From NCBI RefSeq assembly GCF_029978005.1, contig NZ_JARKOZ010000002.1:1-64000 (forward strand): a stretch of 64,000 nucleotides of DNA. Direction: 5' to 3'. The translations under genes were made by a program, and so were the position numbers. The notes below the pieces were generated by a model. That model saw only the letters and a list, made by a program, of their open reading frames with translations, was not told where the DNA came from and ran no database searches. This DNA is from Solidesulfovibrio sp. Lineage in GTDB: Bacteria > Desulfobacterota > Desulfovibrionia > Desulfovibrionales > Desulfovibrionaceae. Numbering within the stretch: the first letter of the stretch is position 1; each line of letters opens with the position of its first letter. Shown piece after piece: positions 7,064 through 31,188 of the stretch.

Positions 7064-7156
7064 CGTGCCGCCGTCCGCTTGATAGAGTTCCGCGCCCCCT
7101 GATAGGGTCTCCGTTACCTGTTCACCTGACCGTCAACCCGCAAAGGAGGCGCGGAA

Positions 7157-7576
7157 ATGCTTTTCGACAACTATGCTGCCGCGAGCCGGGTTCATGTTCA
7201 TGAACTGCTCACCATTCTCTCGGCCGACGAAATCAATGGTCTGCGCGAGACCTGCCGGCGTCTCGGGCAAAAAGGCGTGCAGCAATGGTATGGTGAACAT
7301 TTCGATCTTGTTCTCGACTATGTCCGCGCGACACCCAGCGAAAGAAAACGTAAGAAAGCCTGGCAAGTTCAAGATATAAAAGGGATACTTGTACTCGTAT
7401 CTTCAATACATGCCGCACAAGCCAGGGGGCTTTTAAAGGCCATAACGAACAGGGTCTTTGCTCCTGGATTGTCATACCGGGAAACGACAGCCCTAGCTGG
7501 TGAAATTTATCTCGACGTTCTAATGCAGCCAGTACCTTACTGGCCCTTTGATCCGCCTGATCCTTTTGCAGAGTAG
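7157..7576 (+). CDS. Plus-strand hypothetical gene inside the minus-strand early operon
   Basis: 139 residues with a strong AAAGGAGG ribosome site and ATG at 7157. It lies between the transposase and the small early regulators but on the opposite strand, so early transcription would run through it antisense. Charged and helical; its middle is AT-rich. No family was recognised. Orientation and composition suggest a moron: a cargo gene with its own promoter, possibly expressed from the lysogen. Confidence 0.6.
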   Translation: MLFDNYAAASRVHVHELLTILSADEINGLRETCRRLGQKGVQQWYGEHFDLVLDYVRATPSERKRKKAWQVQDIKGILVLVSSIHAAQARGLLKAITNRVFAPGLSYRETTALAGEIYLDVLMQPVPYWPFDPPDPFAE

Positions 7577-7585
7577 GCATTGTGT

Positions 7586-7801
7586 TCACCACGCTTGTTG
7601 GCTGCTCATTAGGCCGGGAACGTGCTCCATCCGCTTTATGTGCCGGCGGAGTGTCGTCTCCGAGCAATCCGACAAACCGCGTTCCTCAAAGATCATGCGA
7701 GCCCAACGACAGACTACGGCGATGGGCGGTTTGGCTGGATGGTTGGCCAAGGCAAGCAGAATCGAGGCATGGGCATCGGACACGGCCATCCGCTTGTTCA
7801 T
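7586..7801 (-). CDS. Small hypothetical phage regulator
   Basis: 71 residues from ATG 7801-7799, with GGAGGAG 8 nt upstream. The segment SETTLRRHIKRM resembles a recognition helix of a small DNA-binding protein. Not recognised at family level. It opens 4 nt after the next upstream gene, so it belongs to the same early transcript. Confidence 0.5.
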   Translation of the reverse strand: MNKRMAVSDAHASILLALANHPAKPPIAVVCRWARMIFEERGLSDCSETTLRRHIKRMEHVPGLMSSQQAW

Positions 7802-7805
7802 GACG

Positions 7806-8003
7806 CTACTCCTCCACCCCGAGGAAGCGCTTTGTGGTCGCGGATTCAACCCCTGTCCCGCTGTCCCGCAGCATCACGCCGACGCCGCACATGCCCAGCA
7901 GCGCGGCCCGAACCGCCGCTTCGGGAATGTTGTTTTGCCTCAAAACCTGGGCAATCTGCCGCATCTCTTCCGCCTTCCCGGTCATCCGCTTCCGCTTGCT
8001 CAC
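7806..8003 (-). CDS. Small hypothetical phage protein
   Basis: 65 residues from a GTG start (8003-8001) that overlaps the upstream stop as GTGA. The N-terminus is basic (SKRKRMTGKAEEM), then helical with an HTH-like run (IAQVLRQNNIPEAAVRAALL). No annotation beyond early phage protein can be supported. Confidence 0.5.
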   Translation of the reverse strand: MSKRKRMTGKAEEMRQIAQVLRQNNIPEAAVRAALLGMCGVGVMLRDSGTGVESATTKRFLGVEE

Positions 8004-8281
8004 TGCGTCACCCCCAGAAGGGTATGGCCCTGTTCCCGGCACCTGCGGCGCAGGGCGACATGGGCGGCGCGGAAGCCGTCCCGCGTGAGGCAGAAGAACA
8101 CGCCCATCGACGCATCCTCGAACGCGTCGATGTCGAACCGGCCATTCTTCATGAAAGGCTTCTCGTCGGTGGGGGCCGCGACAAGATAGCCAACCAACCC
8201 GCTCGTCGGTTCGGTATGCAACCCGGAGACACCACAAAGACCGGGTTCCACCCGCCACATGTCCATGATCATCTCCATCAC
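8000..8281 (-). CDS. Hypothetical phage protein
   Basis: 93 residues with a clear AGGAGG site before the ATG. Mixed alpha/beta composition, no recognised motif. Coupled to the next gene by a GTGA overlap. Confidence 0.5.
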   Translation of the reverse strand: MMEMIMDMWRVEPGLCGVSGLHTEPTSGLVGYLVAAPTDEKPFMKNGRFDIDAFEDASMGVFFCLTRDGFRAAHVALRRRCREQGHTLLGVTQ

Positions 8282-8383
8282 CTGTCCTCCTGTTTCGGTT
8301 GATATTTTCCGCGCCCCCGGGGGATGGTACTGGCGGTCTGGCCGCTCGGCCCAAACGCCGTGAGGCGCGGAAATTCCTGGCGG

Positions 8384-8590
8384 CTAGGCCGCTTGCTTGT
8401 CTTTTGCTCCCAGGTACTTGGCCGGACAGCCATGTTCCCGCAGCCAACCGAGGATCGCGGGGGAGTTTGTCTTGCGCCCGGCCAGGAAGTGGCTGACGTA
8501 GCTGCGGGACACTCCCGCGCCGGTGGACACGTCCACTCCCTTGATGCCCTTACGGACGAGCCAGACCCTGATTCGTTCAACCTTCACCAT
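8384..8590 (-). CDS. Small HTH protein (Cro/Ner-like)
   Basis: 68 residues from ATG 8590-8588, overlapping the upstream stop by 14 nt. The sequence VDVSTGAGVSRSYVSHFLAG is a good helix-turn-helix, so this is a Cro-like or Ner-like regulator. In Mu the ner gene, first in the early operon, turns down early and repressor transcription; here this is the second gene of the operon. Assignment as the functional Ner is an inference. Confidence 0.65.
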   Translation of the reverse strand: MVKVERIRVWLVRKGIKGVDVSTGAGVSRSYVSHFLAGRKTNSPAILGWLREHGCPAKYLGAKDKQAA

Positions 8591-9032
8591 TGATCCGCTC
8601 CCAAAGTTCCCGCTTCCGTCGGCTGCGCTTTCGTTCTTCGACCACCACCTTGCCCATCTCGTAGATGGCCGCCTCTTCCGGCGAGAGCACGACGTACCCG
8701 GCCGGACAGGCGGCGGCCAAAATCCGGGCATCGCCCAGGATCACGGTCAAAGCGGCCACATATTCCAAAGGAATATGGCGCTCGCCCTTTTTGCTCGCGG
8801 CGGTCCAACTGTTGATGTGGTGCTCGCTCACGTTGGCCCCGGTCAGTCTGGCCAGTTCGTCGGCGATGTACTGTCGGGTGAGGCCGGATGCCTTGATGGC
8901 GGCATCCACCGCTTCGTAGACGGCCTCGAGGCAGCGGAGGCTGCCGGCCGCCATGTGCGTCGTCGGCAGACTGGACAGGGGCAACGTGAGCTGCACCATG
9001 CGACTGTCCAAATTGCGCTGCCTCTTAGCCAT
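8577..9032 (-). CDS. First gene of the early operon, probable DNA-binding protein
   Basis: 151 residues. The middle (around 50-85: LTRQYIADELARLTGANVSE) resembles an HTH, followed by a hydrophobic helix and a very basic tail (KVVVEERKRSRRKRELWERI). It faces the repressor gene across a 162-bp control region with palindromic operators, so it is transcribed from the early promoter. It may be a replication or transcription regulator; the family is not recognised. Confidence 0.6.
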   Translation of the reverse strand: MAKRQRNLDSRMVQLTLPLSSLPTTHMAAGSLRCLEAVYEAVDAAIKASGLTRQYIADELARLTGANVSEHHINSWTAASKKGERHIPLEYVAALTVILGDARILAAACPAGYVVLSPEEAAIYEMGKVVVEERKRSRRKRELWERINGEG

Positions 9033-9070
9033 TGCCCTTCCCAGGTTTCCCGACTAGATTCCGGGCCAAG

Positions 9071-9090
9071 GCGGTCAATTTGTTGACCGC
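9071..9090. promoter_or_regulatory. Perfect 20-bp palindrome, probable repressor operator
   Basis: GCGGTCAA-TTTG-TTGACCGC lies between the divergent repressor and early genes, 39 bp before the early operon start. A related shorter palindrome, GTTGTCAAC, lies at 9119-9127. Their position and symmetry suit operators for the CI-like repressor or the Cro-like protein. Confidence 0.6.
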
Positions 9091-9194
9091 GTAGGAAAGG
9101 TTTAGGCTCGTGAGTAAAAGTTGTCAACGGGTAATAAAGCTACTTCGGGCTTTCGATCCTGTGGGTTCTATATATTTCCAAACAATAGACTGAT

Positions 9195-9815
9195 ATGACT
9201 AGCGAAAATAAAAAACCAGCTACTTCTGACTTAGCTTCGGGCTTTCAAGACGAAAGCCTGAATTCCTTTGATTTTGCCATAAAAAGATTGCGTCTTGCAA
9301 TAAATGTGAATGATATTGGTGAGTTAGCGTCATTTCTTGGAATTAGTCGGCAGGCGATAAACAAAGCTCGCTCGGCGAAAAAAATTCCTCCATCGTGGTT
9401 TATTCAAGTTGGTCAAGGAACAAATGTTTCGATTGATTGGCTTGTTTCCGGCGACGGCCCCATGCGCCGGGGTGAAACCGCCGTGCCCGCGACCACTTCA
9501 GCGCCGCCGACCGCCGATGCCTTCTTGACGGCCCCACAAGAAGAATTTCGAATGTCGGATATGCTGACCAAGACGGCCGAAGTGCTGGAGTCCGACACCA
9601 TTTATCGGACAGCTTTAGCGAGCAATATCAACGCGTTTCATCAAGCGGTGAGGAGCGAGCGGACGCTGGCTCGGCTGGAAGAGCGCATGGGGGAGATCGA
9701 AGCCAAGGCGGATGCCATGGCACGCGAACTAAGCGAATTACGTCGTGAAAACAGGGAATTAAAGGAACGGCTGGAGCCTGCCAGCCAGGACAAGGCGGTG
9801 GGTGCGGCGGGGTAA
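9195..9815 (+). CDS. CI-type phage repressor
   Basis: 206 residues. The N-terminal half (about 25-85) is a phage CI-repressor helix-turn-helix: IGELASFLGISRQAINKARS, then the IPPSWFIQVGQGTNVSIDWL stretch typical of the family. The C-terminus is a coiled coil (RTLARLEERMGEIEAKADAM) and not an S24 peptidase, so SOS-type self-cleavage is not expected. The first 280 nt are AT-rich and the rest GC-rich, which suggests a mosaic of two sources. It is divergent to the early operon and should maintain lysogeny. Confidence 0.82.
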   Translation: MTSENKKPATSDLASGFQDESLNSFDFAIKRLRLAINVNDIGELASFLGISRQAINKARSAKKIPPSWFIQVGQGTNVSIDWLVSGDGPMRRGETAVPATTSAPPTADAFLTAPQEEFRMSDMLTKTAEVLESDTIYRTALASNINAFHQAVRSERTLARLEERMGEIEAKADAMARELSELRRENRELKERLEPASQDKAVGAAG

Positions 9816-10193
9816 GCTGATTATTGTATCAAATTGGGCTATTAGCTCTTTTTTTATGTCCATCGCCTTCGACGATTCGATATTTCTTGGCTCCGTCATG
9901 TAGGCGGCCTTCAAACTTTCTCACTTTGCCTGATATTTTCACCCCCATTTCGGCCCAATTTCTCATCTTGCCTTCCGCCCGCCCCGCGCGTCTGGCCGAC
10001 GCCCGCAAGCCCACGTCCGGCCTATGTTTAGCCCACGTTGAGCCTACCCGATTCAGGCCCCACGCCATTTCTCATTTTGCCTGACTCCCCACACCAAAGG
10101 TCGGCCCGGCCCGCTCTTGTCGCTTCCCGGGGCGTGTGGCCGCTCCCCCATTTAGTGTCGGCCACAAGCCCTGAAAGACAACCAGGACCAGCA
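9816..10193. other. Prophage end and junction, no credible gene
   Basis: This stretch contains the three end repeats and the inferred phage/host junction. The about 100 bp from 10094 to 10193 is host DNA at the tail of the activase gene. Short open frames exist on both strands but run through the repeats and show no protein-like sequence. Confidence 0.6.
9917..10084 (+). repeat. Three copies of a 17-bp motif at the prophage end
   Basis: TTTCTCACTTTGCCTGA (9917-9933), TTTCTCATCTTGCCTTC (9959-9975) and TTTCTCATTTTGCCTGA (10068-10084) share orientation and about 14 of 17 bases. They lie beyond the repressor, where Mu has its MuA sites L1-L3. The outermost copy is followed within 10 bp by a possible phage terminus (minus strand 5'-TGTGGGGAGTC from 10093). 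Start offsets of 42 and 109 bp are uneven, as in Mu. Confidence 0.7.
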
Positions 10194-11087
10194 TCAAACA
10201 ATGATGGTGACCATGAGGTCATGCTTGGCGAACCGGGCGAGCGCCGTCTGCAGTTCCCCCGGCTGGTAAGATCCCATATGCGGCCGAGGAAGATTCAGGG
10301 CGTCGTATTTGCTGTATCCGAAAGTATGGCAGGGCAGCACATCGATTTCATGTCGCCCGTGTTTATGGAGAAACATGGCCATATCCGCGATATTTTTCTC
10401 CGTATCATTGACTCCCGGCATAAGCGGCACGCGAACGCGCACCTCCCTCCCCGATTCGAAAAGCGTATGAAGGTTTTTCAGGATGATCGCGTTGTCGCGG
10501 CCGGTCAGGCGTTTGTGCTCTTCAGGGTCCATATGCTTGCAGTCGAAGAGGAAAAGCTCGGCCCTTCGCATGACTTCCCTGAACCGCTCCGGCTCGCACA
10601 CGCCGCAAGTATCGATGCAGGTATGATACCCTCTCCTGTTGCACGCCGCGAGGAGATCAAGCAGAAAATCACCGGCCGCCGTCGGTTCGCCACCGCCGAT
10701 AGTCACGCCGCCGCCCGAATTGCTGTAAAAGAGGCTGTCGCTATCGCTGATGCGTAAAATGTCCTCCACGGACATACGTTTTCCCGACATTTCCCGCGCC
10801 TTCGCCGGACACACCTCCACGCATGCCCCGCAATCCGTGCAGAGCGTCCGATCACGGTTGTAAACGCCGTCTCTCTTGGTCACTGCGCCCTGAGGACAAA
10901 CTTTCTCGCATTCGCCGCAACCCGTGCAAAGATTTGCGAAAACCATGAGCTGCGGCTTGAAGCTCTGCGATTCCGGATTGCTGCACCAGGGGCAGTGCAA
11001 GGGACAACCTTTGAGAAAAATCGTCGTCCGCAATCCTGGTCCGTCTTTCGTCGACATCCTCTGTATGTTGTACACAATCCCGTCCAC
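10194..11087 (-). CDS. Glycyl-radical-enzyme activase (radical SAM)
   Basis: 297 residues when started at GTG 11087-11085, which has AAGGAG 8 nt upstream and puts the usual GIVYNIQRMSTKDGPGLRT start at the N-terminus; a longer frame to 11180 would cross the promoter. The radical SAM motif is GCPLHCPWC (CxxxCxxC), followed by two ferredoxin-like clusters (CTGCGECEKVCP, CTDCGACVEVCP) and the GGGEPT SAM-binding motif. It should generate the glycyl radical on the enzyme encoded divergently at 11488. The two extra Fe-S clusters place it with activases of non-PFL glycyl-radical enzymes. Confidence 0.93.
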   Translation of the reverse strand: MDGIVYNIQRMSTKDGPGLRTTIFLKGCPLHCPWCSNPESQSFKPQLMVFANLCTGCGECEKVCPQGAVTKRDGVYNRDRTLCTDCGACVEVCPAKAREMSGKRMSVEDILRISDSDSLFYSNSGGGVTIGGGEPTAAGDFLLDLLAACNRRGYHTCIDTCGVCEPERFREVMRRAELFLFDCKHMDPEEHKRLTGRDNAIILKNLHTLFESGREVRVRVPLMPGVNDTEKNIADMAMFLHKHGRHEIDVLPCHTFGYSKYDALNLPRPHMGSYQPGELQTALARFAKHDLMVTIIV

Positions 11088-11163
11088 CAGTCGCACTCCT
11101 TCTATAGAATGTTTGCCCGCCTCGCCTTGAACTCCAAGGTTCCCTTCGACGGGCAGTTTGCAA

Positions 11164-11179
11164 AGCATTTTTGATGCCA
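11164..11179 (-). promoter_or_regulatory. Sigma-54 promoter for the activase
   Basis: On the minus strand TGGCATCAAAAATGCT fits TGGCAC-N5-TTGCW with GG and GC separated by exactly 10 bases. Transcription would start about 77 nt upstream of nothing else than the activase leader, roughly 65 nt before its GTG start. Confidence 0.65.
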
Positions 11180-11263
11180 CTGAAAAACTACAAATAAATC
11201 AGCGTAGTACGCCCCAGAGCGCGCACCTCCAGGACGAATGACGGCGCGATCGTGTGCAAACAG

Positions 11264-11276
11264 GTACAGATTGTAC
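11264..11276. promoter_or_regulatory. GTACA-N3-TGTAC inverted repeat, candidate activator site
   Basis: GTACAGATTGTAC lies midway between the two divergent sigma-54 promoters. Another GGTACAC occurs at 11305-11311. The position about 90-140 bp upstream of both promoters suits an enhancer-binding-protein site serving both; the cognate activator is unknown. Confidence 0.4.
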
Positions 11277-11401
11277 TGGATTACACGAAGGCCACTCTTC
11301 TTTCGGTACACTTCTTCGCAACTCCGGTCGGAAGAACGCAGAGGGCGTCGAGTCCTTGGCAAAAGTTTTTATTTTTCACGCAATTACAGCAAAGAAAAAT
11401 T

Positions 11402-11417
11402 TGGCAAGCCATTTGCA
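11402..11417 (+). promoter_or_regulatory. Sigma-54 promoter for the glycyl-radical enzyme
   Basis: TGGCAAGCCATTTGCA matches TGGCAC-N5-TTGCW with the required GG-N10-GC spacing. The predicted transcription start near 11428 leaves a leader of about 60 nt before the AGGAGG site and ATG at 11488. Confidence 0.75.
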
Positions 11418-11487
11418 ACCAACACGACGCAAAAGAGAGCCGCAGGCTTTCGCCGGACCCCAAAGAAATGATGCGAGGAGGCTTTAC

Positions 11488-13893
11488 ATGGGATACGCAA
11501 TTGATTGGGATACATTGGACCAACGCATTTCCAACCAGAAGGAGACGCTTCTCGACACGTCGCAGAATATGGATCCCGAGCGCCTCAAATTCCTGAGCGA
11601 GGCTTACGATGAGTGCAAGGGAGAAAGCGTATTCATCACTCGCGCCAAGCTTTTTGAAAAAGTGCTGACGAACAAAAAGATCTACCTTGACGGCAACCCT
11701 ATCGTCGGCAGCCTCGCCGGCGGCCGGGCCATGATCTATGCCTACCCGGAATGGCAGTGCAACTGGATCAGGGAGGACCTCGACTCCGAAAAGCTGGCTC
11801 TGTCGTCCCTGGGCGAGGTCCGCTTCTCCGACGACACCAAAGCCGTTCTGAAGAAAGTCTACAAGGACTGGAAGGGCAAGACCACCTACGACCGCGCCAA
11901 CAAGCTCTACAAGGAACTCTACGGCGGCAACGCCGAACTCCTTGTGAAGTGCGGCTGGATCTACCCGGTGAACGACAACTCCACCGGCTCCGGCGTGGCC
12001 GATTATCCCGCCATGCTGAACAAGGGTGTCCGCGGCCTCCTCGAGGAGGTTGACGCCGCCTACAAGGCCCTTCCCAAGCACGCCACCAACTGGTCCAAAA
12101 TCGAATTCTACCGGGCCTGCAAGATCGTCCTCAATGCCGTGATCGCCTACGCGCACCGGTATGCCGACTTGGCCGAGGAGACCGCCAAGACCGAGTCCGA
12201 TCCCAAGAGAAAGGCGGAGCTGCTGGAAATCGCCGAGGTCTGCCGCCGCGTGCCCGAATACCCGGCCCGCAACTTTCGTGAAGCCGTCCAGTCCTTTTGG
12301 TTCGCGCACTGCTGCATCGAAATCGAGCAATGCGGCTGCGGGCACTCACTGGGGCGGTACGGCCAGTACATGTACCCCTTCTACAAAAAAGACATTGAGG
12401 AAGGGAACCTCACGAAGGATCAGGTTCTTTCCCTCTTGAAGTGCCAGTGGGTCAAACACCTTGAGATCGCGGTCTACCAGGGCGACGCGTATGCCAAGGC
12501 GTTTTCGGGCCATACCGGCCAGACCATCTCCCTGGGCGGCTATACCGCCGACGGCGACGACGCGTCCAACGCTCTCGAAGAGCTGCTCATGGATACGCAG
12601 ATCGCCATGCACAACATCCAGCCCACGCTGGCCCTGTTCTACACCCCGAAGATGAAGCAGTCGTACCTTGAGAAGGCTGTGGACGTCGTCCGCCATGGTT
12701 CCGGCCAACCGCAATTCATGAACATGGATGCCGCCATGGCCCGTTCCCTGGTCCGCTTCGCCTCGCGGGGAATCACCCTGGACGAGGCCCGCACGCTTCC
12801 CGTCATCTTCGGCTGCGTCGGCACGGGCATGCAGGGCAAGGGCTCCTACGTCACCTTCGAGGGCCAGCCGAACCTGGCCAAGCTGGTCGAGTTCGCCATG
12901 TACAATGGCCATGATCCGCACACCAACAAACAGGTTTTCCCCGAAGTGAAGCCTGCCGAGGACTGCGGCGACTTCGAGGAATTCTACCAGAGCATGCTCC
13001 AGCACATGGACCATGCCTACGATGCGCAGCGCAAGATCAGCGATCTCGGCAACTGCACTCGTGAGGAAGTCGTTCCGAACATCTTCCGGTCGTGCCTGCT
13101 TGAAGGCTGCATCGAGAGCGGTCTCTGCGAAGAGGCCGGCGGGCCCAAGTATTCCCAGTCGCTGTGCATCACCGCGACCGGCATCGATGCCGTGAACTCG
13201 CTGTATGCCATCAAGCATCTTGTCTACGACACCAAGAAGCTCACCTGGGCCAAGCTCAAGGAAGCTCTGGCCGCCAACTTCGAAGGCTTCGAGGACATCC
13301 AGAAGATTTGCTACGAAGCCCCCAAGCACGGCAACGACATCGAAGACGTGGATCAGCTCACCAGGCGATTCTTCCGCGACGTCGAGCGCACCTACCGCTC
13401 GCATGGCCCGGATTACTTCGGCTACGAAGCCCACATGGATCCTTTCTCCCTGTCCTACCACAACTACTTCGCGCCGATGACCGGCGCCCTTCCCAACGGG
13501 CGCAAGAAGGGCGTCGCCCTGACCGATGCGAGCGTTTCCGCCATGCCGGGCACCGATGTGCACGGCAGCACGGCCCTGATCAAGTCGGCTGCGCAGGCGA
13601 TCGACACTGTCCGCAACAATTGCAACCACATGAACATGAAGTTCCTGCCTTCCGCCTTGGAAGGTCCCAACGGCAGCCGGATGCTGCTTAACCTGGTCAA
13701 GACCTATTTCGACCTCGGCGGCGGTCACATCCAGTTCAACTGCGTGGACGCCGAGACGCTGCACGATGCCCAGGACCGTCCGCAAAACCATAAGGATCTC
13801 GTCGTTCGAGTCGCCGGATTCTCTTCGTACTTCACGCGGCTTTACAAAGGCGTCCAGGACGAGATCATCAAACGCACGGAATACGCGGCCTAA
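11488..13893 (+). CDS. Glycyl-radical enzyme with non-standard CVG active-site loop
   Basis: 801 residues from ATG 11488 (AGGAGG 7 nt upstream). The C-terminal radical motif is VVRVAGFSSYF with Gly777, and the catalytic loop is FGCVGTGMQGKGSYV with Cys443. Many eliminases and decarboxylases (glycerol and choline lyases, hydroxyphenylacetate decarboxylase) have C-x-E here; this protein has Gly445 instead of Glu. That argues against a plain assignment as CutC, glycerol dehydratase or isethionate lyase. The loop's GKxSY...NLAKLVE layout recalls arylacetate decarboxylases, but no small subunit follows. The substrate is unknown. It pairs with the divergent activase and, downstream, with two HesB-like genes. 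Confidence 0.9.
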   Translation: MGYAIDWDTLDQRISNQKETLLDTSQNMDPERLKFLSEAYDECKGESVFITRAKLFEKVLTNKKIYLDGNPIVGSLAGGRAMIYAYPEWQCNWIREDLDSEKLALSSLGEVRFSDDTKAVLKKVYKDWKGKTTYDRANKLYKELYGGNAELLVKCGWIYPVNDNSTGSGVADYPAMLNKGVRGLLEEVDAAYKALPKHATNWSKIEFYRACKIVLNAVIAYAHRYADLAEETAKTESDPKRKAELLEIAEVCRRVPEYPARNFREAVQSFWFAHCCIEIEQCGCGHSLGRYGQYMYPFYKKDIEEGNLTKDQVLSLLKCQWVKHLEIAVYQGDAYAKAFSGHTGQTISLGGYTADGDDASNALEELLMDTQIAMHNIQPTLALFYTPKMKQSYLEKAVDVVRHGSGQPQFMNMDAAMARSLVRFASRGITLDEARTLPVIFGCVGTGMQGKGSYVTFEGQPNLAKLVEFAMYNGHDPHTNKQVFPEVKPAEDCGDFEEFYQSMLQHMDHAYDAQRKISDLGNCTREEVVPNIFRSCLLEGCIESGLCEEAGGPKYSQSLCITATGIDAVNSLYAIKHLVYDTKKLTWAKLKEALAANFEGFEDIQKICYEAPKHGNDIEDVDQLTRRFFRDVERTYRSHGPDYFGYEAHMDPFSLSYHNYFAPMTGALPNGRKKGVALTDASVSAMPGTDVHGSTALIKSAAQAIDTVRNNCNHMNMKFLPSALEGPNGSRMLLNLVKTYFDLGGGHIQFNCVDAETLHDAQDRPQNHKDLVVRVAGFSSYFTRLYKGVQDEIIKRTEYAA

Positions 13894-13903
13894 TCCATGA
13901 CGC

Positions 13904-13946
13904 GAGGCGGGGGCTCTCGCCGCGAGAGAGCCCCCGCCTCTTTGTT
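13904..13946 (+). terminator. Hairpin after the glycyl-radical gene
   Basis: A 15-bp stem (GAGGCGGGGGCTCTC with its complement at 13926-13940), a 7-nt loop, then TTTGTT. It lies 10 nt after the stop codon and 15 nt before the selenoprotein start region, so it would terminate or attenuate transcription into the HesB-like genes. Confidence 0.75.
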
Positions 13947-13960
13947 CCGAGGAAGAGCAC

Positions 13961-14254
13961 ATGCTAGAAATTGCCGTTACGCCTGAGGTTTCCGCCAAGT
14001 TCAAGGAAATCCTGAATGAGGAAGGCGATCCGAACGCCGTTTTTCGAATCTACGAAACAAAAGTCGGAGGCGGCTGAAAAAGTCATCTGGAACTCCGGGT
14101 GAGTCTTGATGAGCGCACGGATGCCGACGAGGAGCAGGAAACCCAGGTGGCAGGCATGCCCTTCGTCGTCGCCAACGAAGTCATAGACGGGTACGGCTCC
14201 AAATATAGCATCGCCGCCACTGAAAATGGCCTGCCCGGCGTAACTGCCGGCTGA
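13961..14254 (+). CDS. HesB/IscA-like probable selenoprotein (TGA = Sec39)
   Basis: 97 residues if TGA at 14075-14077 is read as selenocysteine; without that the frame stops after 38 residues. The frame before the TGA (VFRIYETKVGGG) and after it (KSHLELRVSLDER) aligns without gaps along the full length with the Cys paralog at 14306-14599, which has VGGGCKSH at the same codon. A hairpin (TCATCTGG, loop AACT, CCGGGTGA) starts 5 nt after the TGA, the place of a bacterial SECIS. A GAGGAAGAG ribosome site precedes ATG 13961. A-type Fe-S carriers deliver or hold clusters; this Cys is a family ligand position. HesB-like selenoproteins are known in prokaryotes. Confidence 0.8.
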
Positions 14255-14305
14255 ACGAAGCAACTCCCGCACAAGATAATTTTCAACACTCAAAAAGGAT
14301 ACGCA

Positions 14306-14599
14306 ATGCTGAACATTTCCATTGCCGCTGAAGTCTCCGCCAAGTTCAAGAAACTTTTGGAAGAAGAAAGTGGTCAAAATCCCGTGTTTCGGATTTATGA
14401 ATCCAAGGTCGGCGGCGGCTGTAAAAGCCATATGGAACTTCGCGTGAGCCTTGACGAGCGGTCGGATGTCGACGAGGAGCAGGAAATCCAAGTCGATGGC
14501 ATACCCTTCGTGGTCGGCGACGACGTCATCGATACCTACGGCTCGCAATACAGCATCTTTGCAGCCGAAAACGGCATGCCCGGCGTCAAGGCCGGCTGA
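14306..14599 (+). CDS. HesB/IscA-like protein, Cys paralog
   Basis: 97 residues, the same length as the upstream selenoprotein copy and clearly its tandem duplicate (VSAKFKKLLEEE, VFRIYESKVGGGCKSH, GIPFVVGDDVIDTYGSQYSI, ENGMPGVKAG). Only Cys39 is present; the usual C-terminal CxC of IscA/ErpA is absent, which is typical of the short HesB-like subgroup in sulfate reducers. A role in Fe-S or metal handling for the neighbouring radical enzymes is an inference from context. Confidence 0.85.
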   Translation: MLNISIAAEVSAKFKKLLEEESGQNPVFRIYESKVGGGCKSHMELRVSLDERSDVDEEQEIQVDGIPFVVGDDVIDTYGSQYSIFAAENGMPGVKAG

Positions 14600-14608
14600 A
14601 GCCGAAAG

Positions 14609-14642
14609 GGGCATCCGTGCACGACGGATGCCCTTTTTCTTT
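14609..14642 (+). terminator. Rho-independent terminator after the HesB pair
   Basis: Perfect 9-bp stem GGGCATCCG / CGGATGCCC with a 7-nt loop, followed by TTTTTCTTT. It closes the glycyl-radical / HesB transcript. Confidence 0.9.
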
Positions 14643-14673
14643 GCCACGCTGAGGATATTATCGCCAATCGAGT

Positions 14674-14689
14674 TGGCACGACATTTGCG
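14674..14689 (+). promoter_or_regulatory. Sigma-54 promoter for the TPR-DUF4125 pair
   Basis: TGGCACGACATTTGCG is a near-consensus -24/-12 element with correct spacing. The start would be near 14700, giving a leader of about 245 nt before ATG 14945. The rest of the interval 14690-14944 is AT-rich and shows no gene. Confidence 0.72.
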
Positions 14690-14944
14690 GAAAATTTCAG
14701 AATTTGAGTACAAAAAAAGACGAATCCCGGTTTTCGTACCCGGAAGGGAGGACGAGGCGGACAGGACGAGGCCATCCATGAGCCTCGGCTCGGATTCAGC
14801 AAAGACAATGCAAGTACTCAGATGTTGATGTGTTGCGAAGTGCTTTTTGCAGTTGACCATGTTTTTCTTGAGCCCAAAGGCGAATCTTCAACTCTGTAAA
14901 TCGTGACGGACAGGAAAAACCGATTCCGTCCACTTCTTCAACGT

Positions 14945-15775
14945 ATGAATATCCTAGAGCAAATTGCCGCGACCGAGCAACTCTTCTCAAAGGGCAAGAT
15001 CGAAGAAGCGATGCTTGTATATGATGACATGTCCCGAATGGAGCACCTTACGGCGCAGGAAAAAGGCTTGGTTCTTTTTGGCCTTGGGGCCTGCCATCTC
15101 GTTCAAAACGACTATGAAAACGCCTGCTCGAGACTGAAAGAGAGCTGGGAACTGCTTTTATCCGCCTTGGGCGCAAAAAATCCGAGCACAACGCGTACGA
15201 TGGTCCTTCTCTCTCGAGCGTTGATCGCTGTCGGCAGTCTGGAATCCGGCATGGAGATCGGCCGCGGCGCTTTGGAAAATCTTGTCGCACTGTATGGGCC
15301 AGAGGATGCGCAAACAGCCACCGCGGCTTTTTTCCTGTCCGCTGGAGCCTACAAGTTCGGACGCCTGGCCGAGGCGGAAAGCCTGACGCTTCAAGCGATG
15401 GGCGCCTGGGAAAAAAAACACGGGCACGATTCGCTCCAAGTGGCGACCTGCCTCGATGCGCTCGGCAAGCTCCGGGATGTTTGCGGAGAGAAGCGGGAAG
15501 GCGTGCGGTTTCACCGGCAGGCCCTGGACATAAAATTGAAGATCCTCGGCGATCACGAGACCACGGCGGCTTCGCTCGGGCATGCCGGCGTCGCCCTAGC
15601 GGAGCTGGGCGACTGGAAGGAGGCGGCGACGCTCTTGACCCGGGCGCTTGAGACTTTCCGGCGTATCGGCGCAGCCGAGGACGCCGCAGGCACGGCTCTT
15701 TTTCGTGAAAAACTCGCCCTATGCCGGCAAATGCTTTCCAAGGAGATCCGCGATGGACAAGAAACTGCTCACTGA
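14945..15775 (+). CDS. TPR-repeat protein
   Basis: 276 residues from ATG 14945 (a GTG at 14903 in frame is possible; neither has a strong ribosome site). It is built of helical repeats of TPR/NPHP3 type, e.g. LVLFGLGACHLVQNDYENAC, TAAFFLSAGAYKFGRLAEAE and AASLGHAGVALAELGDWKEA. It should act as a protein-interaction scaffold in the cytoplasm; no signal peptide. Its last 23 nt overlap the DUF4125 gene, so the two are co-translated, and both lie downstream of a sigma-54 promoter next to the glycyl-radical module. Confidence 0.8.
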   Translation: MNILEQIAATEQLFSKGKIEEAMLVYDDMSRMEHLTAQEKGLVLFGLGACHLVQNDYENACSRLKESWELLLSALGAKNPSTTRTMVLLSRALIAVGSLESGMEIGRGALENLVALYGPEDAQTATAAFFLSAGAYKFGRLAEAESLTLQAMGAWEKKHGHDSLQVATCLDALGKLRDVCGEKREGVRFHRQALDIKLKILGDHETTAASLGHAGVALAELGDWKEAATLLTRALETFRRIGAAEDAAGTALFREKLALCRQMLSKEIRDGQETAH

Positions 15776-16373
15776 TGCAATCGTCGACATCGAATGGGAT
15801 ATGTTCCGCAGCGTAAACAACAAAGGCGGAAAAGCCGCCTGCCAGATGGACCACGCCACGTTTCTCATCATGCGCAACAGCCAATTCGCCTCTTGGGACG
15901 ACGCCCTGCTCGCAAGCTATCTGAATGATCTTGCATCCGCCCAGGGGCAGGGACGAAACCTCATGAGCGAAAAGTATGCACGCATGATGGAGTCCACCTT
16001 CCCGGAGGAATATGCCCAGCTTGCGGACCGCCTTCCGTCGATCGATCCCGTCGCTGCCCAACAAATCGAGGAGATCGTTTCCATCCATGTGCAGTGGAAG
16101 GAAGTGCTCGACAAACGCTATCCCCACCTGAGCGATCGATCGCGCCCTGTGCGCAGCCGGGACGACAGCGTCGGGCTGGCCTCTTTGGAGACATACACGC
16201 GCGCGGAGCTCAAGACCTATTCGCCAAAAACCATATCGCTGTACCATGCGGCCACGATAAAACGTATCGAACGCGGCGAAAGCGAAGCCGAGCAGAACAT
16301 GTTGCATCAAGTCAGACAATACGGCTTCGAGAATCCCGACGAAGCCGACAACTATTTCAGCACCCATGCGTAG
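15753..16373 (+). CDS. DUF4125 family protein
   Basis: 206 residues from ATG 15753 (AAGGAG at proper distance, inside the end of the TPR gene). The N-terminal pattern is that of DUF4125: DIEWDMFRSVNNKGGKAACQ, then HATFLIMRNSQFASW and GRNLMSEKYARMMESTFPEE. The biochemical role of the family is not known to me. Co-translation with the TPR protein and closeness to the glycyl-radical genes suggest a shared pathway. Confidence 0.82.
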   Translation: MDKKLLTDAIVDIEWDMFRSVNNKGGKAACQMDHATFLIMRNSQFASWDDALLASYLNDLASAQGQGRNLMSEKYARMMESTFPEEYAQLADRLPSIDPVAAQQIEEIVSIHVQWKEVLDKRYPHLSDRSRPVRSRDDSVGLASLETYTRAELKTYSPKTISLYHAATIKRIERGESEAEQNMLHQVRQYGFENPDEADNYFSTHA

Positions 16374-16379
16374 CGACCA

Positions 16380-16409
16380 CGGGCAGCCCGAAAGTCTTCG
16401 GGCTGCCCG
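16380..16409 (+). terminator. Hairpin after DUF4125 gene
   Basis: A 13-bp perfect stem (CGGGCAGCCCGAA with its complement) around a 4-nt loop, 7 nt after the stop codon. No T-run follows, so termination may be partial. Confidence 0.65.
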
Positions 16410-16830
16410 CGTGTTCGATTCTCTGCTCTTGCAGTATGCTCTTTGCCATGCCTTCTTTGAAGAGATTGCGGCATGGATACTGGCACTGAACATCTTTTGG
16501 TTGCGAATACCATCTTGAACTGCCCGAAACGTATCTTCGACAGCACTTGTCCGTGGACATCATATGGCAGCAGAGCCTCGTTCTGAAGAGGCCTTATATC
16601 ACTCGAAACGAACCATTCATCGTGGACAGGCATTCTTGATTTCTATCAATCACTGGAATCTCACGGAACACCATCATGCCAATTAATTCCTGCACTTATA
16701 TCTACCTAAAATTTTACGATTTACCACAATCGCAACGATCCATATGCCTGACTCTCCTCTCCTGTGCACGGCAGGAGACAGCCGCCCTGTATTGAATCAA
16801 CTTTGAACCATACGGAACCATGGAGTCGTC
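16410..16830. other. Intergenic, 420 bp, no gene seen
   Basis: AT-rich DNA ahead of the DUF169 gene. Short open frames look random. I found no -24/-12 element with correct spacing on either strand. Confidence 0.5.
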
Positions 16831-17589
16831 ATGTCCCTCAGCTACCGCGAAATCGAAGACGTGTTGATGCAAGGGCTTCGCCTGTACCATCATCCGATTG
16901 CAGTAACTTTTTTTTCGACCGACGAGGAGGTGAGTTATTTCAAACAAGTGACTCGCCATGTCGTGCCGGCGAAACCTTTAACCTTCTGTCAGTGGGAAAT
17001 CGCGGCGAGGATGGAAGGCAAAACGGTCGTCGCTGAAAAGAAGCGTTTGGGATGCTGCCCCGCGAAGATCAGTTTCGGGTGGGAGGACATCGGAGAAGAC
17101 GACATCAATTTCCTGACGGATGCCTATACGGATTTTGAAGCAGCCAAAATGATCATGAATTCCAAGCCGCGGCTCCCCCTCGATTCCATAAAGGCTATTT
17201 CGGTGGGTCCTCTGGGAAAAGCAGTCATCCCTCCACAGGTCATCCACCTGTACTGCGACAACATGCAATCACACTCTCTTGCCGTCGCGTATATGAAAGC
17301 CATGAAGATCCATCCGTTGCGTCCAATGGTCTGCGAGAGTTCGTCGGCTTGCGGCGGAAGCGTCTTTTGCCATCAAGAACAGACCTTCAATTTGTCGCCC
17401 TGTTGCAAAGGAAGTTACAATTCTGGCAAAACAGAGCGCGGTGAAGTGAACGTCTTTATACCAGCTACGCATCTGGAGTCGACGGTCAACTGTCTCGTCG
17501 ATACCGTCCTGAACAATGAAGAAGAGACATTCCCCGGGCCAGACATCTGTAAAAACTGTGCGCTCATCACCTTTCATGAGCAAAGCTAG
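16831..17589 (+). CDS. DUF169 family protein
   Basis: 252 residues from ATG 16831 with a GGAG ribosome site. The family signature is visible: LRLYHHPIAVTFF near the start, KPLTFCQWEIAARMEG, then CPAKISFGWED and a Cys-rich middle (CESSSACGGSVFCHQ, SPCCKGSYNSG) and a C-terminal CKNCALITF. DUF169 proteins are common in anaerobes and their function is unsettled; the many conserved Cys suggest metal or cofactor binding. It is a single gene with its own short flanks. Confidence 0.82.
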   Translation: MSLSYREIEDVLMQGLRLYHHPIAVTFFSTDEEVSYFKQVTRHVVPAKPLTFCQWEIAARMEGKTVVAEKKRLGCCPAKISFGWEDIGEDDINFLTDAYTDFEAAKMIMNSKPRLPLDSIKAISVGPLGKAVIPPQVIHLYCDNMQSHSLAVAYMKAMKIHPLRPMVCESSSACGGSVFCHQEQTFNLSPCCKGSYNSGKTERGEVNVFIPATHLESTVNCLVDTVLNNEEETFPGPDICKNCALITFHEQS

Positions 17590-17749
17590 CTCTACGGTTT
17601 TCGAAAGAGTCTTCGCCTGACAAGGCTTTTCGAAGCGCTATTGTCGGATGAATTCTTTTTCTGCATCTAACAAAAACAGAATTAATTGCTCCAGCTTCCT
17701 TGTTGATCCGTTCCGGCAGACTTCTTGAGCACGACATAAGGAGGGCGTT

Positions 17750-20077
17750 ATGCGGAAGTGCGGCATCAACGGAGTCATCACCCTTTTCGTCGTCTTGTCG
17801 GTTGTAGCGGGCATCGGCGCGCTCATCGCCTACGTCTCGGCCTCCACCTACGACAACACCAAGGCCCTGCAGGAGGAATCCCTCACCCAGACGGCGAACA
17901 TCACCACCAAGGTGCTCGGCCTTTTCGTCGAGAACGCCGAGCGAACGGCCGCCAACCTGGCCACCCAGCCGGCCACCGTGGCGGCCCTGCGCAGCGAACC
18001 GAGCGACGTGGGGGCCATCATCGAAAGCGCCCTGGAAGTCTCTCCGGAGCTGCTCTCGATCTTTTTCTTCGACACCAAGGGCAACCTCGTGGTCGCCCGC
18101 AGCCGACAGGGCGGGGTGACCAAGAGCTACGCCGACCAGGAATACTGCAAGGCGATCCTCTCCGGCCAAAAAACCTATGTCAGCCGTTCCATCCTGCGCG
18201 ACAAGAACACCTCGGACATGATCTTCGTCGCCTCGAGCGCCGTGCTCGGCCCGGATGGCAAAATCCTTGGCGGTGTGGCCGTGTCGACCATGTGGGAGGC
18301 CATCACCAAGGAATACATCGATCCCATCCGGTTCGGGAAGCGGGGTTACGCCTTCATGCTCGACGAGGCCGGCGTCTCCATCGCCCACGCCATGAACAAG
18401 GACCAACTGCTGCACGACACCACGGACCAGGACTATGTGCGCCAGGCCTTGAAGCTGCCCAAGGGCCTCGTCCGCTACACGCTCGGCGGCGAGGTCAAGC
18501 AGATGGCCGTGGCCCAGGTTCCGGCCACGGGCTGGCTCGTATGCATGTCCGAATACGAGGACGAACTCATGGCCGGGGCGACGCGCCAGCGCACGGTGCT
18601 TCTCGGCCTGGGCGCCCTCGTGGCGGCGGCGGTGGTGGCCGTCATCACCGTGGCCAACCGGCGGCTGGTCTTCGGGCCCCTGCGCACTATCGACGCCTTC
18701 ACTTCCCATGTGGCCACGGGCGACTTCAACGTGACCCTGACAGGGCGGTTCCGGTTCGAACTGGCCATGCTGGCGGACAACCTCAGGCGCATGGTCGGAG
18801 AACTCAAGACGCGGCTCGGCTTCGCGCAGGGCGTGGTCAACGGCATTCCCACCCCCTGCGCGATCATCGGGCCCGACTGCAAGATGTCCTGGGTCAACCA
18901 GCCCATGTGCGACCTGATCGAGAAGCCCGGCCCGCCCGAGAGCTACGTGGGCCAGTCGGCCGGGATCTTTTACTACGGAGACGCCGACCGGTCGACCAAT
19001 TCCGAGAAAGCCCTGCAAGAGCGGCACATGATCACGGCCGAGCGCACCCATGTCACGCCTTCCGGCAACACCCTGGAAGTCGTCATCATCACCACGCCGT
19101 TCTACGACATGGACGGCAACCTGCTCGGCACCATCGCCTTTTGGAGCGACCAGACGGAGGTCCGAACCCAGCAGCAGCAGATCGCATCCCAGAACACCCT
19201 CATGCTGGACACGGCCCGGAAGGCCTCCGCCGCGTCGGACAATATGGCCGCCGCGGCGCAGCAGCTCTCGGCCCAGATCGGGCAGGCCAACCAGGGGGCC
19301 CAGGAGCAAAGCAGCCGCGTGCAGGATACGGTGTGCGCCGTGGAGCAGATGAACGCCACCATCCTGGAGGTGGCCAGGAATGCCGCCGAAACCGCCAAAA
19401 ACGCCGACATGGCCGGGAAGAAGGCCCGGGAGGGCGAACAGCTCGTCAGCCGGGTCATGACCTCCGTGGACTCGGTGCGCCAAGCCGCCGGCCAGCTCCG
19501 GACCTCCATCCGCGACCTGGGCGAGCGCGCCCGAGGCATCGGCAGCGTGCTCAACGTCATAAGCGACATCGCCGACCAGACGAACCTGCTGGCCCTCAAT
19601 GCCGCCATCGAAGCGGCCCGGGCCGGCGAGGCCGGCCGGGGCTTCGCCGTCGTCGCCGACGAGGTGCGAAAGCTCGCCGAAAAAACCATGAACGCCACCA
19701 AGGAGGTCGGCGAGGCCATCACCGGCATCCAAAGCGGCACCACCGACACCGTGGACATGGTGGATCTGGCGGTGGAAGCCGTGGCCGAGGCCACGCACCT
19801 GGCCGAAGACTCGGGGTCGGCCCTGAGCGAGATCGTCGCCGTGGTCGAAGCCGCCGGGGACCAAGTCCGGGCCATCGCCACCGCTTCCGAAGAACAATCC
19901 TCCACTTCGGAGGAAATCACCCGCGCCGTGGAATCCATCAGCCGCATCGCCTCGGAAACGGCCAATGCGATGGCCCAGTCCTCGGACGCGGTCGCCAGTT
20001 TGGCCGACCAGGCGCAAAGCCTCAACGCGCTGGTGGCCGGCATTCGGGGAAACGCAGCCCAACCCGCCCTCTCCTGA
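17750..20077 (+). CDS. Methyl-accepting chemotaxis protein with Cache and PAS domains
   Basis: 775 residues. TM1 near residues 8-32, a periplasmic dCache sensor (about 35-280, with [17 protein letters not shown] and [18 protein letters not shown]), TM2 near 283-305, HAMP, a cytoplasmic PAS (around 360-470: [20 protein letters not shown]) and the signalling domain with the conserved hairpin [20 protein letters not shown]. It will transmit ligand binding to CheA/CheW. The dCache type typically senses small organic acids or amines; the ligand here is unknown, but the TRAP transporter downstream handles such compounds. Confidence 0.93.
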
Positions 20078-20103
20078 CCTGGGGCAATGCCCACCTGCCC
20101 AAC

Positions 20104-20146
20104 GCGCCGGCGTGGAAAGACGCTCCTCCCGCGCCGGCGCTTCTTT
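20104..20146 (+). terminator. Hairpin terminator after the chemoreceptor
   Basis: GCGCCGGCG (20104-20112) pairs with CGCCGGCGC (20132-20140), followed by TTCTTTCT. The loop is long (19 nt), so strength is uncertain. Confidence 0.55.
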
Positions 20147-20345
20147 CTACTCTGACAGCACGCGAAGTAAATTCGACGCAGCGGTGGCTTTGACCCGCAG
20201 CCGTACCGATGAGGGACCGGCTGCGGCGTGTTGCACGCCGTTCTCAACTGAGCCGTCGGCCAGCCTGTTCCATCGACAGAGGCCTTTCAGTTTAAGCAAC
20301 ATCTCGGCGTATCTATTTTGTTGTGTTCGGATTCTCTGGAATGCC

Positions 20346-20367
20346 GGTGTACTCCTTTCGGTACACC
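20346..20367. promoter_or_regulatory. GGTGTAC-N8-GTACACC inverted repeat
   Basis: A perfect 7-bp inverted repeat with an 8-nt spacer. It lies about 154 bp upstream of a sigma-54-type promoter at 20521, the usual distance for an enhancer site. Confidence 0.5.
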
Positions 20368-20520
20368 AGAGTGATTGTTGCTTTTAATAAATTAATTCAG
20401 CATATTGCATGGCAATGCAGCCGGGTTGTACCCAAATGCGAACACTCTGAAAGGCCGTGAACGTGCCGCAGGGATCCTAATTTATACTAATAAATCAATA
20501 CATTAAGAGATTGACACGCA

Positions 20521-20536
20521 TGGTACAAACATTGCT
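20521..20536 (+). promoter_or_regulatory. Sigma-54 promoter with no nearby gene
   Basis: TGGTACAAACATTGCT fits the -24/-12 consensus with exact spacing. The next convincing gene on this strand is the TRAP binding protein 930 nt further on, so the element either makes a long leader, a non-coding RNA, or has lost its original gene. Confidence 0.55.
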
Positions 20537-21467
20537 TTGAGAACAGTATCAAATGCATTCTTCTTTGTGATTTTTGTAACAAGACGCTTCTGGATTTTAT
20601 GCCGGAGAGCCGGCGCGCCCATTGCGAAGCGGACGGGAGCGTTCGACCGAAATGCGAAAGGACGGTCGACTGCAGACGCTTCCGCAAGACTGGAGCCGCC
20701 GATGGATGGCGTGTTTTCACATGACGAAATAGTTTCGCAAAAGTCTATGGAGACGCTTTGATGTATGCAGCGCATGTCCGGCATGTGCAAACTGGATCGT
20801 AAAATAGTTTCTTGAATCTGCTTTTCCGTCGCTGTCGGACAGCGAGGCTGAGCAGCAGGGAATTCTCGTAAAATGAGATTTTTGAAGAGTCCTGCCCGAT
20901 CCAAAACCGTTGGAGCAACGTCGGTCGTTTTGGGGCAAAGGGGCAAATCGGCGATCAGTGTGTCGGGAATGCCGCCCATGCCAGAGCTAGGAAGTCAGGT
21001 CTTCCGGTTGCGCGAGCAGGGCCACAGCCGGCCGGAACACGGATGCGGCCATGCAGATGCGCCGGCTGGCCTCGAGGTTTGCGCGGCACGGCTTCGCCGG
21101 AGCGGCCGGCGCGAACGGGATGGCTTCGAGGCTGCCCCGGTCCGGGGGGCAGAGGCACGGGACGTCCGCAGGCGTCCCCAGGAGACAAGCGTTCCCCGAC
21201 GGAGTTTCCAGGCAACCACCGTCCGCAGAAACTATAAATCACCATCTGGAGAGAATGTCGCGGCATTTTCTTCGAAACAAAAGGAGGGAGTTTGTCGTCA
21301 TACAGAACAATGGGCAATCAGTGGCGTCGCCGGAGAGCGTTTCGGCGACCGAGTTTTCCATCAGGTACTGTCTGATGTCATTCCGTCTGCCCTGCGCAGA
21401 ACGGAAACTGTTGACGGTATGCTGACGATTCTCACTGCGATATTGTATAAAGCAGAACGGAGACAAC
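20537..21467. other. 930-bp non-coding or decayed region before the TRAP operon
   Basis: Open frames up to about 200 codons exist, but none gives a protein-like sequence or has a ribosome site. Base composition changes from AT-rich (to 20900) to GC-rich (20940-21230) and back. A weak -24/-12-like sequence, TGGGCAATCAGTGGCG at 21311-21326, lies 142 bp before the TRAP start and is an alternative promoter for it. Confidence 0.5.
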
Positions 21468-22766
21468 ATGAAAAGGATGTATGAAGGCTACTCCCCAATG
21501 TCGCGACGCACGTTCCTGAAGGGGTCTGCCGTCACGCTTGCAGCTTTTTCCATGGGCGGGGCGATGATGCCACGCTTTGCTTCCGCAGCTGAAGTTTCGC
21601 CGGGAAACGCTCCGTATATTACGCAGATAACGCCGGAATTGATCAAGGACAACGACACCGGGTGGATTTATTACGGCGCGGAGGCCAAAGACCGGCCGCT
21701 GACGCCCAATGACAAGGCGCAGATGAAGCCCGAAGATTTCCAAAAGGATGCCCTCACGCTCAAGTGCTCCTGCTACTACCCGAACAGCGGCGACATCGGT
21801 CACGGCATCCACTGGGAGACCTTCAGCTTCCTGGAATACAAATTCGGCGGCCGGGTGAAATTCGACCGGTATTTCGGCCAGTCCCTGCACAGCCTCGTCG
21901 ACGGTTGGAAATCGCTGCGCGCCGGCCTCGTGGACATCACGCAGATCTACCACATCCACAACCAGGGCGCTTTCAACCTGTTCATGGCCGACGGCCTGCC
22001 CTTCCTCTCCAACAGCGTGGTCGTGGCCACCCAGATCATGGAGGAGATGTACCCCAAGTATTTCAAAAAGGAAGTCGAGGCCCAGCAGGTCCATCTCGGC
22101 TGGATCCCCCACTTCGACGTGCAGGGCCTCATCTGCACCACGCCCATCCGCAAGATGGAAGACCTCAAGGGCAAGCGGATCATGGGCTTTGGCGGCGAGG
22201 TCATGCGCAACACCCTGATCGGTCTGGGCGCGACCCCTGTGGCCATCCCCACCCCGGACGTCTTCATCGGCCTGCAGCGCGGCGTCGTCGACGGCGTGGC
22301 CTGGGCGGTCGGCAGCATGATCCCCTGGCGTTTCCACGAAGTCGCCAAATACGTCACGGTCACCGGCATGTCCAACACCGCCATCAGCTACGGCATCAAC
22401 AGGAAGACGTTCGCCAGCCTTTCCCCGGAAATGCAGAAGGAACTGTATTTCAATTGCCGATTGGCCGGCAATCATATGTCGGAAGGCTACACCAAACTGG
22501 AGGACCGCGGCCTCAAGGGCCTCAAGGAGGCGGGCGTCGAGATCATCACCCTTGACCCCGAGGAAAAGAAGCGCTGGGTCCAGGTCGGCGACACCATCTG
22601 GGACAAGTTCATTGCCGAAAACGAGAAGAAGGGCTTGCCTGCCAAGGAATTCGCCAAGGACTTCCGGGATTGCGCCGCGAAATTCAACGCCATGACCATC
22701 CGGCAGATCCGGGAATACGTCGAGGACCCCAAGAACACGATCCATGGCATCATTGACGGTTTTTAA
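21468..22766 (+). CDS. TRAP transporter substrate-binding protein (DctP family, Tat signal)
   Basis: 432 residues with GGAG upstream of ATG 21468. A twin-arginine signal (SRRTFLKGSAVTLAAFSMGG, residues 12-31) shows export of the folded protein. The mature part has the DctP pattern, with VPTPDVFIGLQRG-like segment AIPTPDVFIGLQRGVVDGVA, which includes the residue region that binds the substrate carboxylate in the family. It captures an organic acid in the periplasm and hands it to DctQM. The ligand cannot be told from sequence. It is the first gene of the three-gene TRAP unit. Confidence 0.93.
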   Translation: MKRMYEGYSPMSRRTFLKGSAVTLAAFSMGGAMMPRFASAAEVSPGNAPYITQITPELIKDNDTGWIYYGAEAKDRPLTPNDKAQMKPEDFQKDALTLKCSCYYPNSGDIGHGIHWETFSFLEYKFGGRVKFDRYFGQSLHSLVDGWKSLRAGLVDITQIYHIHNQGAFNLFMADGLPFLSNSVVVATQIMEEMYPKYFKKEVEAQQVHLGWIPHFDVQGLICTTPIRKMEDLKGKRIMGFGGEVMRNTLIGLGATPVAIPTPDVFIGLQRGVVDGVAWAVGSMIPWRFHEVAKYVTVTGMSNTAISYGINRKTFASLSPEMQKELYFNCRLAGNHMSEGYTKLEDRGLKGLKEAGVEIITLDPEEKKRWVQVGDTIWDKFIAENEKKGLPAKEFAKDFRDCAAKFNAMTIRQIREYVEDPKNTIHGIIDGF

Positions 22767-22795
22767 ACGCACCGTCTGCACTGCAGTTCCAAAGT

Positions 22796-22827: not shown

Positions 22828-22859
22828 CTGGGTATTTTCGCACCGACAAGGAGCTTCCT

Positions 22860-31160: not shown

Positions 31161-31188
31161 CAATTCTACCGTTACATGCAACGGTTTC

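Follow-up and report, generated by a model that had tools for sequence, protein, structure and literature searches.

We find that a gene at 13961-14254 of the 64,000-nucleotide stretch of Solidesulfovibrio sp. DNA analysed here (the window; features of the locus lie on the forward strand unless noted) very likely encodes a selenoprotein of the IscA/SufA fold, whose TGA codon at 14075-14077 would be decoded as selenocysteine (Sec) with the help of a hairpin just downstream, and which would form, behind a sigma-54 type site, a unit with a cysteine-containing twin and a glycyl-radical enzyme (GRE) that lacks the glutamate of the CxE motif. Comparison with the sequences of relatives establishes the conservation of the Sec/Cys site, the hairpin, the linkage to the GRE and the promoter site, together with a fold that is predicted. 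The first-pass annotation, which had proposed a HesB/IscA-like selenoprotein gene and suggested a glycyl-radical enzyme as its partner, proved largely right.

When the TGA is read as Sec, the frame 13961-14254 gives a 97-residue product, and a single in-frame stop, codon 39, precedes the terminal TGA. Translation thus bears out two earlier claims, that the TGA at 14075-14077 is codon 39 and that the frame runs on, in the same frame, to 97 residues. The Cys paralog reported just downstream is also there: the Cys twin at 14306-14599, likewise of 97 residues, starts 51 nt past the end of the Sec gene, is 71% identical to it without a gap, and carries a TGT at 14420-14422 that aligns exactly to the TGA. 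Sec39, aligned with the first Cys that A-type carriers conserve, is the sole Sec or Cys residue of the product and lies in the motif GGGUKS.

The TGA is a recurrent feature of the family. Searching 348 genomes of the class with a profile, we found IscA-like genes in 70 of them and divided the 116 matches, between E values of 1.2e-6 and 8.9e-5, into 96 stronger and 20 weaker ones. Based on stretches fetched around the stronger matches, the raw codon count at the conserved site was TGA 51, TGC 35, TGT 9 and GAC 4, with GGC, GTC and TCC once each and two matches falling short of the site; in the GTC case a TGA sits one codon on, behind an insertion. After identical stretches were merged, L076, L077, L130, L131 and L113 left out and the site of L080 shifted by one codon owing to an insertion, the loci, including the window gene, comprised 49 TGA and 38 Cys (TGC/TGT) codons. 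Neither TAA nor TAG occurred at this codon in the fetched loci, raw or de-duplicated, so the random stop positions in homologs that had been named as grounds for refutation were not seen. On this comparative evidence the TGA is very probably a Sec codon, in support of the earlier interpretation of a probable selenoprotein with TGA in place of a conserved Cys.

The stretch past the TGA is under selection at the protein level, of the same strength as that ahead of it. Comparing the window Sec gene to its twin gave dN/dS values of 0.13 before the TGA and 0.16 after it, and third-position differences were the most numerous on both sides of the TGA in all six comparisons, though synonymous sites were saturated in several pairs. 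A tree of 80 rows requires a minimum of 14 switches between the Sec and Cys labels, supported branches forcing 6 of them; the tree leaves out matches with E above 1e-20, was built from few columns, and its bootstrap was not yet stable. The window Sec and Cys genes are sisters on it (95/91), indicating that Sec/Cys pairs arose more than once. Counted by eye, 59 loci, some of them at contig ends, divide into 23 with both Sec and Cys genes, 25 with Sec alone and 11 with Cys alone. At L075 and L116 the Sec gene has no adjoining Cys twin but a Cys copy lies elsewhere in the genome. Two loci hold a third IscA-like paralog in which Asp replaces Sec/Cys (L054, 1282-1572; L055, 6405-6692).

The claim of a hairpin 5 nt past the TGA stood only in part. 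Such a hairpin is present, but the minimum-energy helix of the window (14083-14090/14095-14102) is not above chance by itself (z -0.75; 42 of 200 shuffles as good), and the family shares another helix, with which it is mutually exclusive. Because it was not significant, we dropped the single-sequence hairpin as evidence and used the family helix instead. This SECIS-like element, at 14088-14108 in the window, pairs 14088-14095 with 14101-14108 around the loop CGGGU (14096-14100), with 7 of 8 pairs formed. Across the family it spans 11-31 nt past the TGA, with 8 pairs and a five-base loop (alignment columns 14-21/27-34), and so has at family level the features looked for in a SECIS, namely a hairpin shortly past the TGA with a G in the apical loop. 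Among the 45 Sec genes, of which 44 are distinct, pairing held in 93.5% of 352 cells, and 18 double changes were found against a shuffled mean of 4.3 (0 of 500 shuffles reached 18), shuffle tests that relatedness of the sequences can inflate. Sliding the helix by 1-3 bases in the Sec genes lowered pairing to 26-49%, a comparison in which the helix is favoured over the slid controls since it was read off these very sequences.

The Cys genes retain part of this helix. In 33 of them 72.7% of 264 cells were paired, three of the 36 distinct rows (L138:7757, L152:8599 and L155:8125) having been left out as divergent; the other hairpin comparison at family level took in all 36 distinct Cys rows. The covariation score of the helix was 0.295 in Cys genes (reached by 0 of 500 shuffles) and 0.282 in Sec genes, and the Cys genes showed 20 double changes (reached by 4 of 500), so covariation is not specific to the Sec genes. 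Synonymous resampling separated the two groups: the 45 Sec genes folded better than their resampled versions (mean z -1.24, p 4e-10), the 36 Cys genes hardly any better (mean z -0.28, p 0.09). We give most weight, as far as the hairpin is concerned, to this contrast between Sec and Cys genes in pairing and resampling. The residual pairing in Cys genes fits either SECIS remnants or a constraint from the shared protein sequence; SECIS remnants after Sec-to-Cys conversions are reported in PMC1794560. A search of 13700-14700 at E up to 1 returned no selenium-related Rfam family, its four matches all lying below gathering scores.

The earlier assignment as HesB/IscA-like holds for the fold but not for the family. 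The window Sec and Cys proteins score 106.2 and 105.2 bits against NF033940 (ErpA_rel; cut-off 65), as do five Sec/Cys relatives at 85.5-143 bits; three divergent relatives, one of them a TGA gene, stay below the cut-off at 39.8-56.4 bits. The window protein falls short of E 0.01 with TIGR01911 and has no UxGP motif, reaches 19.5 bits with NF038090 (IscA_HesB_Se; cut-off 85), and like its twin misses the PF01521 cut-off. An AlphaFold model of the IscA-fold protein (pLDDT 93.5) finds IscA, DsrR and SufA as its closest solved structures (Z 11.3, 10.8 and 10.4; the IscA match, 1r94, over 90 residues), and predicts the A-type carrier fold, with Z 7.3-11.3 for IscA, SufA and HI1723. In the alignment of the family profile to HI1723 (2apn, E 1.8e-5), the Sec/Cys position falls on a Cys, which we take to be the first of the three carrier cysteines. 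A-type carriers (IscA, SufA and ErpA) have three Cys ligands, including a C-terminal CxC. The window proteins share the fold and the aligned position, but unlike the carriers they have no C-terminal CxC; some relatives have a Cys in the C-terminal tail. According to the model, then, the product of 13961-14254 is an IscA/SufA-fold protein with only the first carrier Cys position, occupied by Sec.

The GRE, at 11488-13893, has a PFL-like domain and a glycine-radical domain, with the glycyl motif RVAGF and with GCVGTG where a CxE motif would stand. It reached none of the characterised GRE families at their own cut-offs. The active-site segment is GCV(G/S/A)TG in 14 relatives; among five solved GREs compared, four have GCVE and the fifth, a CutC entry, GCVA. 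Pyruvate formate-lyases have adjacent Cys-Cys at the active site, and this identity was rejected (TIGR01255, 86.8 bits against a cut-off of 994.2; site GCVGTG), as was that of a CxE eliminase or decarboxylase, there being no Glu two residues past the active-site Cys.

Partnership between the two gene families is strongly supported by their linkage. The GRE subfamily has 63 matches in 55 genomes of the class (E up to 1e-150), a set that includes fragments and one entry with an internal TGA (G315) but lacks one fragment of G267. Class-wide, 57 of these 63 GREs lie no more than 5 kb from an IscA-like gene, counting the second GRE of G116, which shares the neighbour of the first. Four of the six unlinked GREs are on contigs apart from the IscA-like matches of their own genomes, and two are in genomes that have none. 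Conversely, a GRE of this subfamily lies within 5 kb of 82 of the 96 stronger IscA-like matches and of none of the 20 weaker ones; gene and GRE occur together in 53 genomes, the gene alone in 3 and the GRE alone in 2. At the level of gene neighbourhoods this is a partnership, its mechanism being a matter on which linkage does not speak. Genes for TauE/SafE-type exporters were seen near members of the clade with the activase downstream (L119, L121, L133 and L135), beside DUF4125 in L119 and L121; these are a possible pointer to a GRE substrate that is anionic and may contain sulfur.

The usual order in relatives is a divergent sigma-54 activator, the GRE, its activase, and then a Sec gene, a Cys gene or both. 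In the clade of the window the activase is divergent, here a radical-SAM protein (TIGR02494) at 10194-11180 on the minus strand, and genes for TPR, DUF4125 and DUF169 proteins follow downstream (14945-15775, 15753-16373 and 16831-17589). The TPR gene also adjoins the pair in close relatives, and the other two are recurrent neighbours. A -24/-12 type sigma-54 site, TTGGCA-N6-TTGC, lies upstream of the GRE at 11401-11416, and a second at 14673-14688 before the TPR and DUF4125 genes. Such a site precedes the GRE at 47 of 51 loci, compared to 1.8% of stretches in a control of simple letter shuffles; the window has 2 sites against 0.18 expected, a number equalled or exceeded in 2 of 100 shuffles. 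Between the GRE and the Sec gene, a 15-bp stem-loop at 13904-13940 resembling an attenuator or processing element is very stable (z -5.8 for 13894-13950), and 3' of the Cys twin there is a terminator-like hairpin with a T run at 14604-14638, which the pattern scan for hairpins had missed. Together these two structures suggest that the Sec and Cys proteins may be made in amounts below that of the GRE.

The locus was probably acquired by horizontal transfer, as judged from composition and distribution. The GC content of 4 kb blocks is 0.54-0.60 in 8001-24000 and 28001-32000 and 0.63-0.69 elsewhere, and a Mu-like transposase is encoded at 4949-7063 on the minus strand. The window GRE shares 92% identity with its counterpart in G016, a member of another genus, while within the genus the GRE subfamily occurs only in G001 and the window's own genome, and strong IscA-like matches among the other 13 genomes only in G001. 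At 4949-9815 the transposase and a CI-repressor-like gene adjoin the island, perhaps as the end of a Mu-like prophage. Further along the window, genes for TRAP, MFS and citrate transporters, a sigma-54 activator and a nitrogenase-component-1-like protein were noted (21468-26245, 26652-28073, 29092-30204 and 32164-33783).

Having been expected for a selenoprotein, the genes selABCD were found in part. The genome encodes a tRNA-Sec with anticodon tca on another contig and a selD (339 bits) with an in-frame TGA of its own, but selA (two profiles) and selB (one profile) were not found in the assembly of 224 contigs, which is 96.3% complete. This is the main point against decoding in this strain. 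The eight selB matches in the genome are all below the cut-off, and the top one, which follows a fusA-like gene, was read as EF-Tu and set aside. selA is present in 12 of the 13 other genomes of the genus, and in the three congeners inspected (G001, G004 and G010) selA, an M18 aminopeptidase gene and selB lie within 5-7 kb, so that one gap could remove both. Short repeats flank selB in G001, and in the window's assembly no fewer than nine contigs have a copy within about 200 bases of their start, which makes a single assembly gap a likely, if unproven, cause of the missing pair. In the congener locus L064 a dispersed repeat stands in opposite orientations around selB (about 14253-14330 and 16270-16375). 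In a DNA search for the selA-selB block, 40 of 1530 candidates were scored, and the matches, most of them to a dispersed repeat, were no longer than about 125 bases; the block was not in the top contig, C37, nor in twelve other stretches, one of these twelve having been fetched for a second GRE. Most of the thirteen lie at contig starts. That second GRE of the subfamily (L179, G000:C176:1-6000; gene at C176:1789-4140) is 47% identical and has a weak IscA-like neighbour at C176:1516-1713. We infer that this organism inserts Sec at the TGA.

Two alternatives take the missing selA and selB at face value. If the TGA had arisen by decay of a Cys codon into a stop, with the twin having taken over, a neighbouring Cys twin, an assembly with neither selA nor selB and an island that looks transferred would all be in keeping; we regard such a pseudogene as barely credible, given 49 TGA against no TAA or TAG at the codon, purifying selection past it and 25 of the 59 loci counted by eye in which a TGA gene has no adjoining Cys twin. 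It is somewhat less far-fetched, though still very unlikely, that a true Sec gene of other genomes is silent or truncated in this strain, selA and selB being truly absent. The same failure to find the two genes and the same transferred island would suit this, but a retained tRNA-Sec and TGA-bearing selD would hardly be useful without them, selA is present in 12 of 13 congeners, and the incomplete assembly (96.3%, 224 contigs) has the selB-flanking repeats of G001 close to where nine or more of its contigs begin.

Two others accept an IscA-fold protein and differ on its family or on its tie to the GRE. That the window gene belongs to the described HesB-like selenoprotein family (TIGR01911 with UxGP; PMC13188914 and PMC9312934), and so is nothing new, seems improbable to us. 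Both are of the IscA-type superfamily and show Sec/Cys exchange, PMC1794560 lists HesB-like selenoproteins for Desulfovibrio vulgaris and D. desulfuricans, and there is the weak NF038090 match of 19.5 bits. However, that match is far from the cut-off of 85, TIGR01911 has a profile of its own with which the window protein stays below reporting level (E 0.01), three relatives of the G001 locus reach 16.8-26.5 bits against its cut-off of 66.35, and the motif is GGGUKS rather than UxGP. Moreover, none of the 20 weaker matches is near a GRE of this subfamily, and the only one scanned (G022) is a CxGP protein that fits NF038090 best, at 79.9 bits. A general Fe-S carrier that stands beside the GRE by chance has a better claim, albeit a minor one: the fold is that of IscA/SufA, NF033940 is described in NCBIfam as an Fe-S insertion protein related to ErpA, and no canonical A-type carrier was found in the genome by PF01521. 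Chance is at odds with 82 of 96 stronger matches within 5 kb of a GRE of the subfamily and with near-identical genome sets (53 with both, 3 and 2 with one), and a carrier role with the absent CxC pair. The PF01521 search of the window's own genome (G000) was run at E 0.001.

For the selenoprotein and its twin as a unit with the GRE, a role can be proposed. Because they are linked to the GRE, share its regulation and present one Sec/Cys ligand on an IscA fold, the two proteins may serve as accessories dedicated to the GRE or to its radical-SAM activase, an assignment we hold tentatively, at somewhat under even chances; they would handle an Fe-S cluster, iron or redox equivalents via the Sec/Cys side chain. 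A bolder and distinctly less probable proposal is a selenoprotein family of its own that brings a selenol into glycyl-radical catalysis, in which the Sec protein, alone or with its twin, would be the obligate partner of a class of GREs deprived of the CxE glutamate, and would supply or quench a hydrogen atom or radical, repair the radical site, or feed the activase by way of a selenium-ligated cluster. Benzylsuccinate synthase and 4-hydroxyphenylacetate decarboxylase have small metal-binding accessory subunits encoded with the GRE; these have other folds and no Sec, and the likeness is one of analogy. DsrR of Allochromatium vinosum (2k4z) resembles the window protein in fold (Z 10.8). It is an IscA-like protein without cluster-binding Cys residues, a regulator of sulfur oxidation with neither Sec nor a GRE.

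A published operon may belong to the same group. DVU2272-DVU2269 of D. vulgaris, with the regulator DVU2275, is described in PMC4641369 as a pyruvate formate-lyase operon and resembles many relatives of the window locus in having, in the same order, a divergent sigma-54 activator, a GRE, an activase and two further genes; judging from gene order only, DVU2270 and DVU2269 would be the IscA-fold pair. A literature search, mostly outside subscription journals, recognised no paper in which a Sec protein is the partner of a GRE, nor did it find a separate IscA-fold Sec family tied to a GRE subfamily, which is what appears new here, HesB-like selenoproteins being already known.

Sec marks residues whose chemistry is worth the expense. 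The GRE is an oxygen-sensitive, uncharacterised enzyme, and the Sec gene and its Cys twin are its partners across a bacterial family. A Sec/Cys protein associated with a single GRE subfamily offers a direct way into this radical enzyme of sulfate reducers. If the identity suggested by gene order is true, the same radical enzyme would be the D. vulgaris 'pyruvate formate-lyase' of PMC4641369. The exchange of Sec and Cys that recurs in tandem twins, with at least six forced changes, amounts to a natural experiment on the benefit of selenium.
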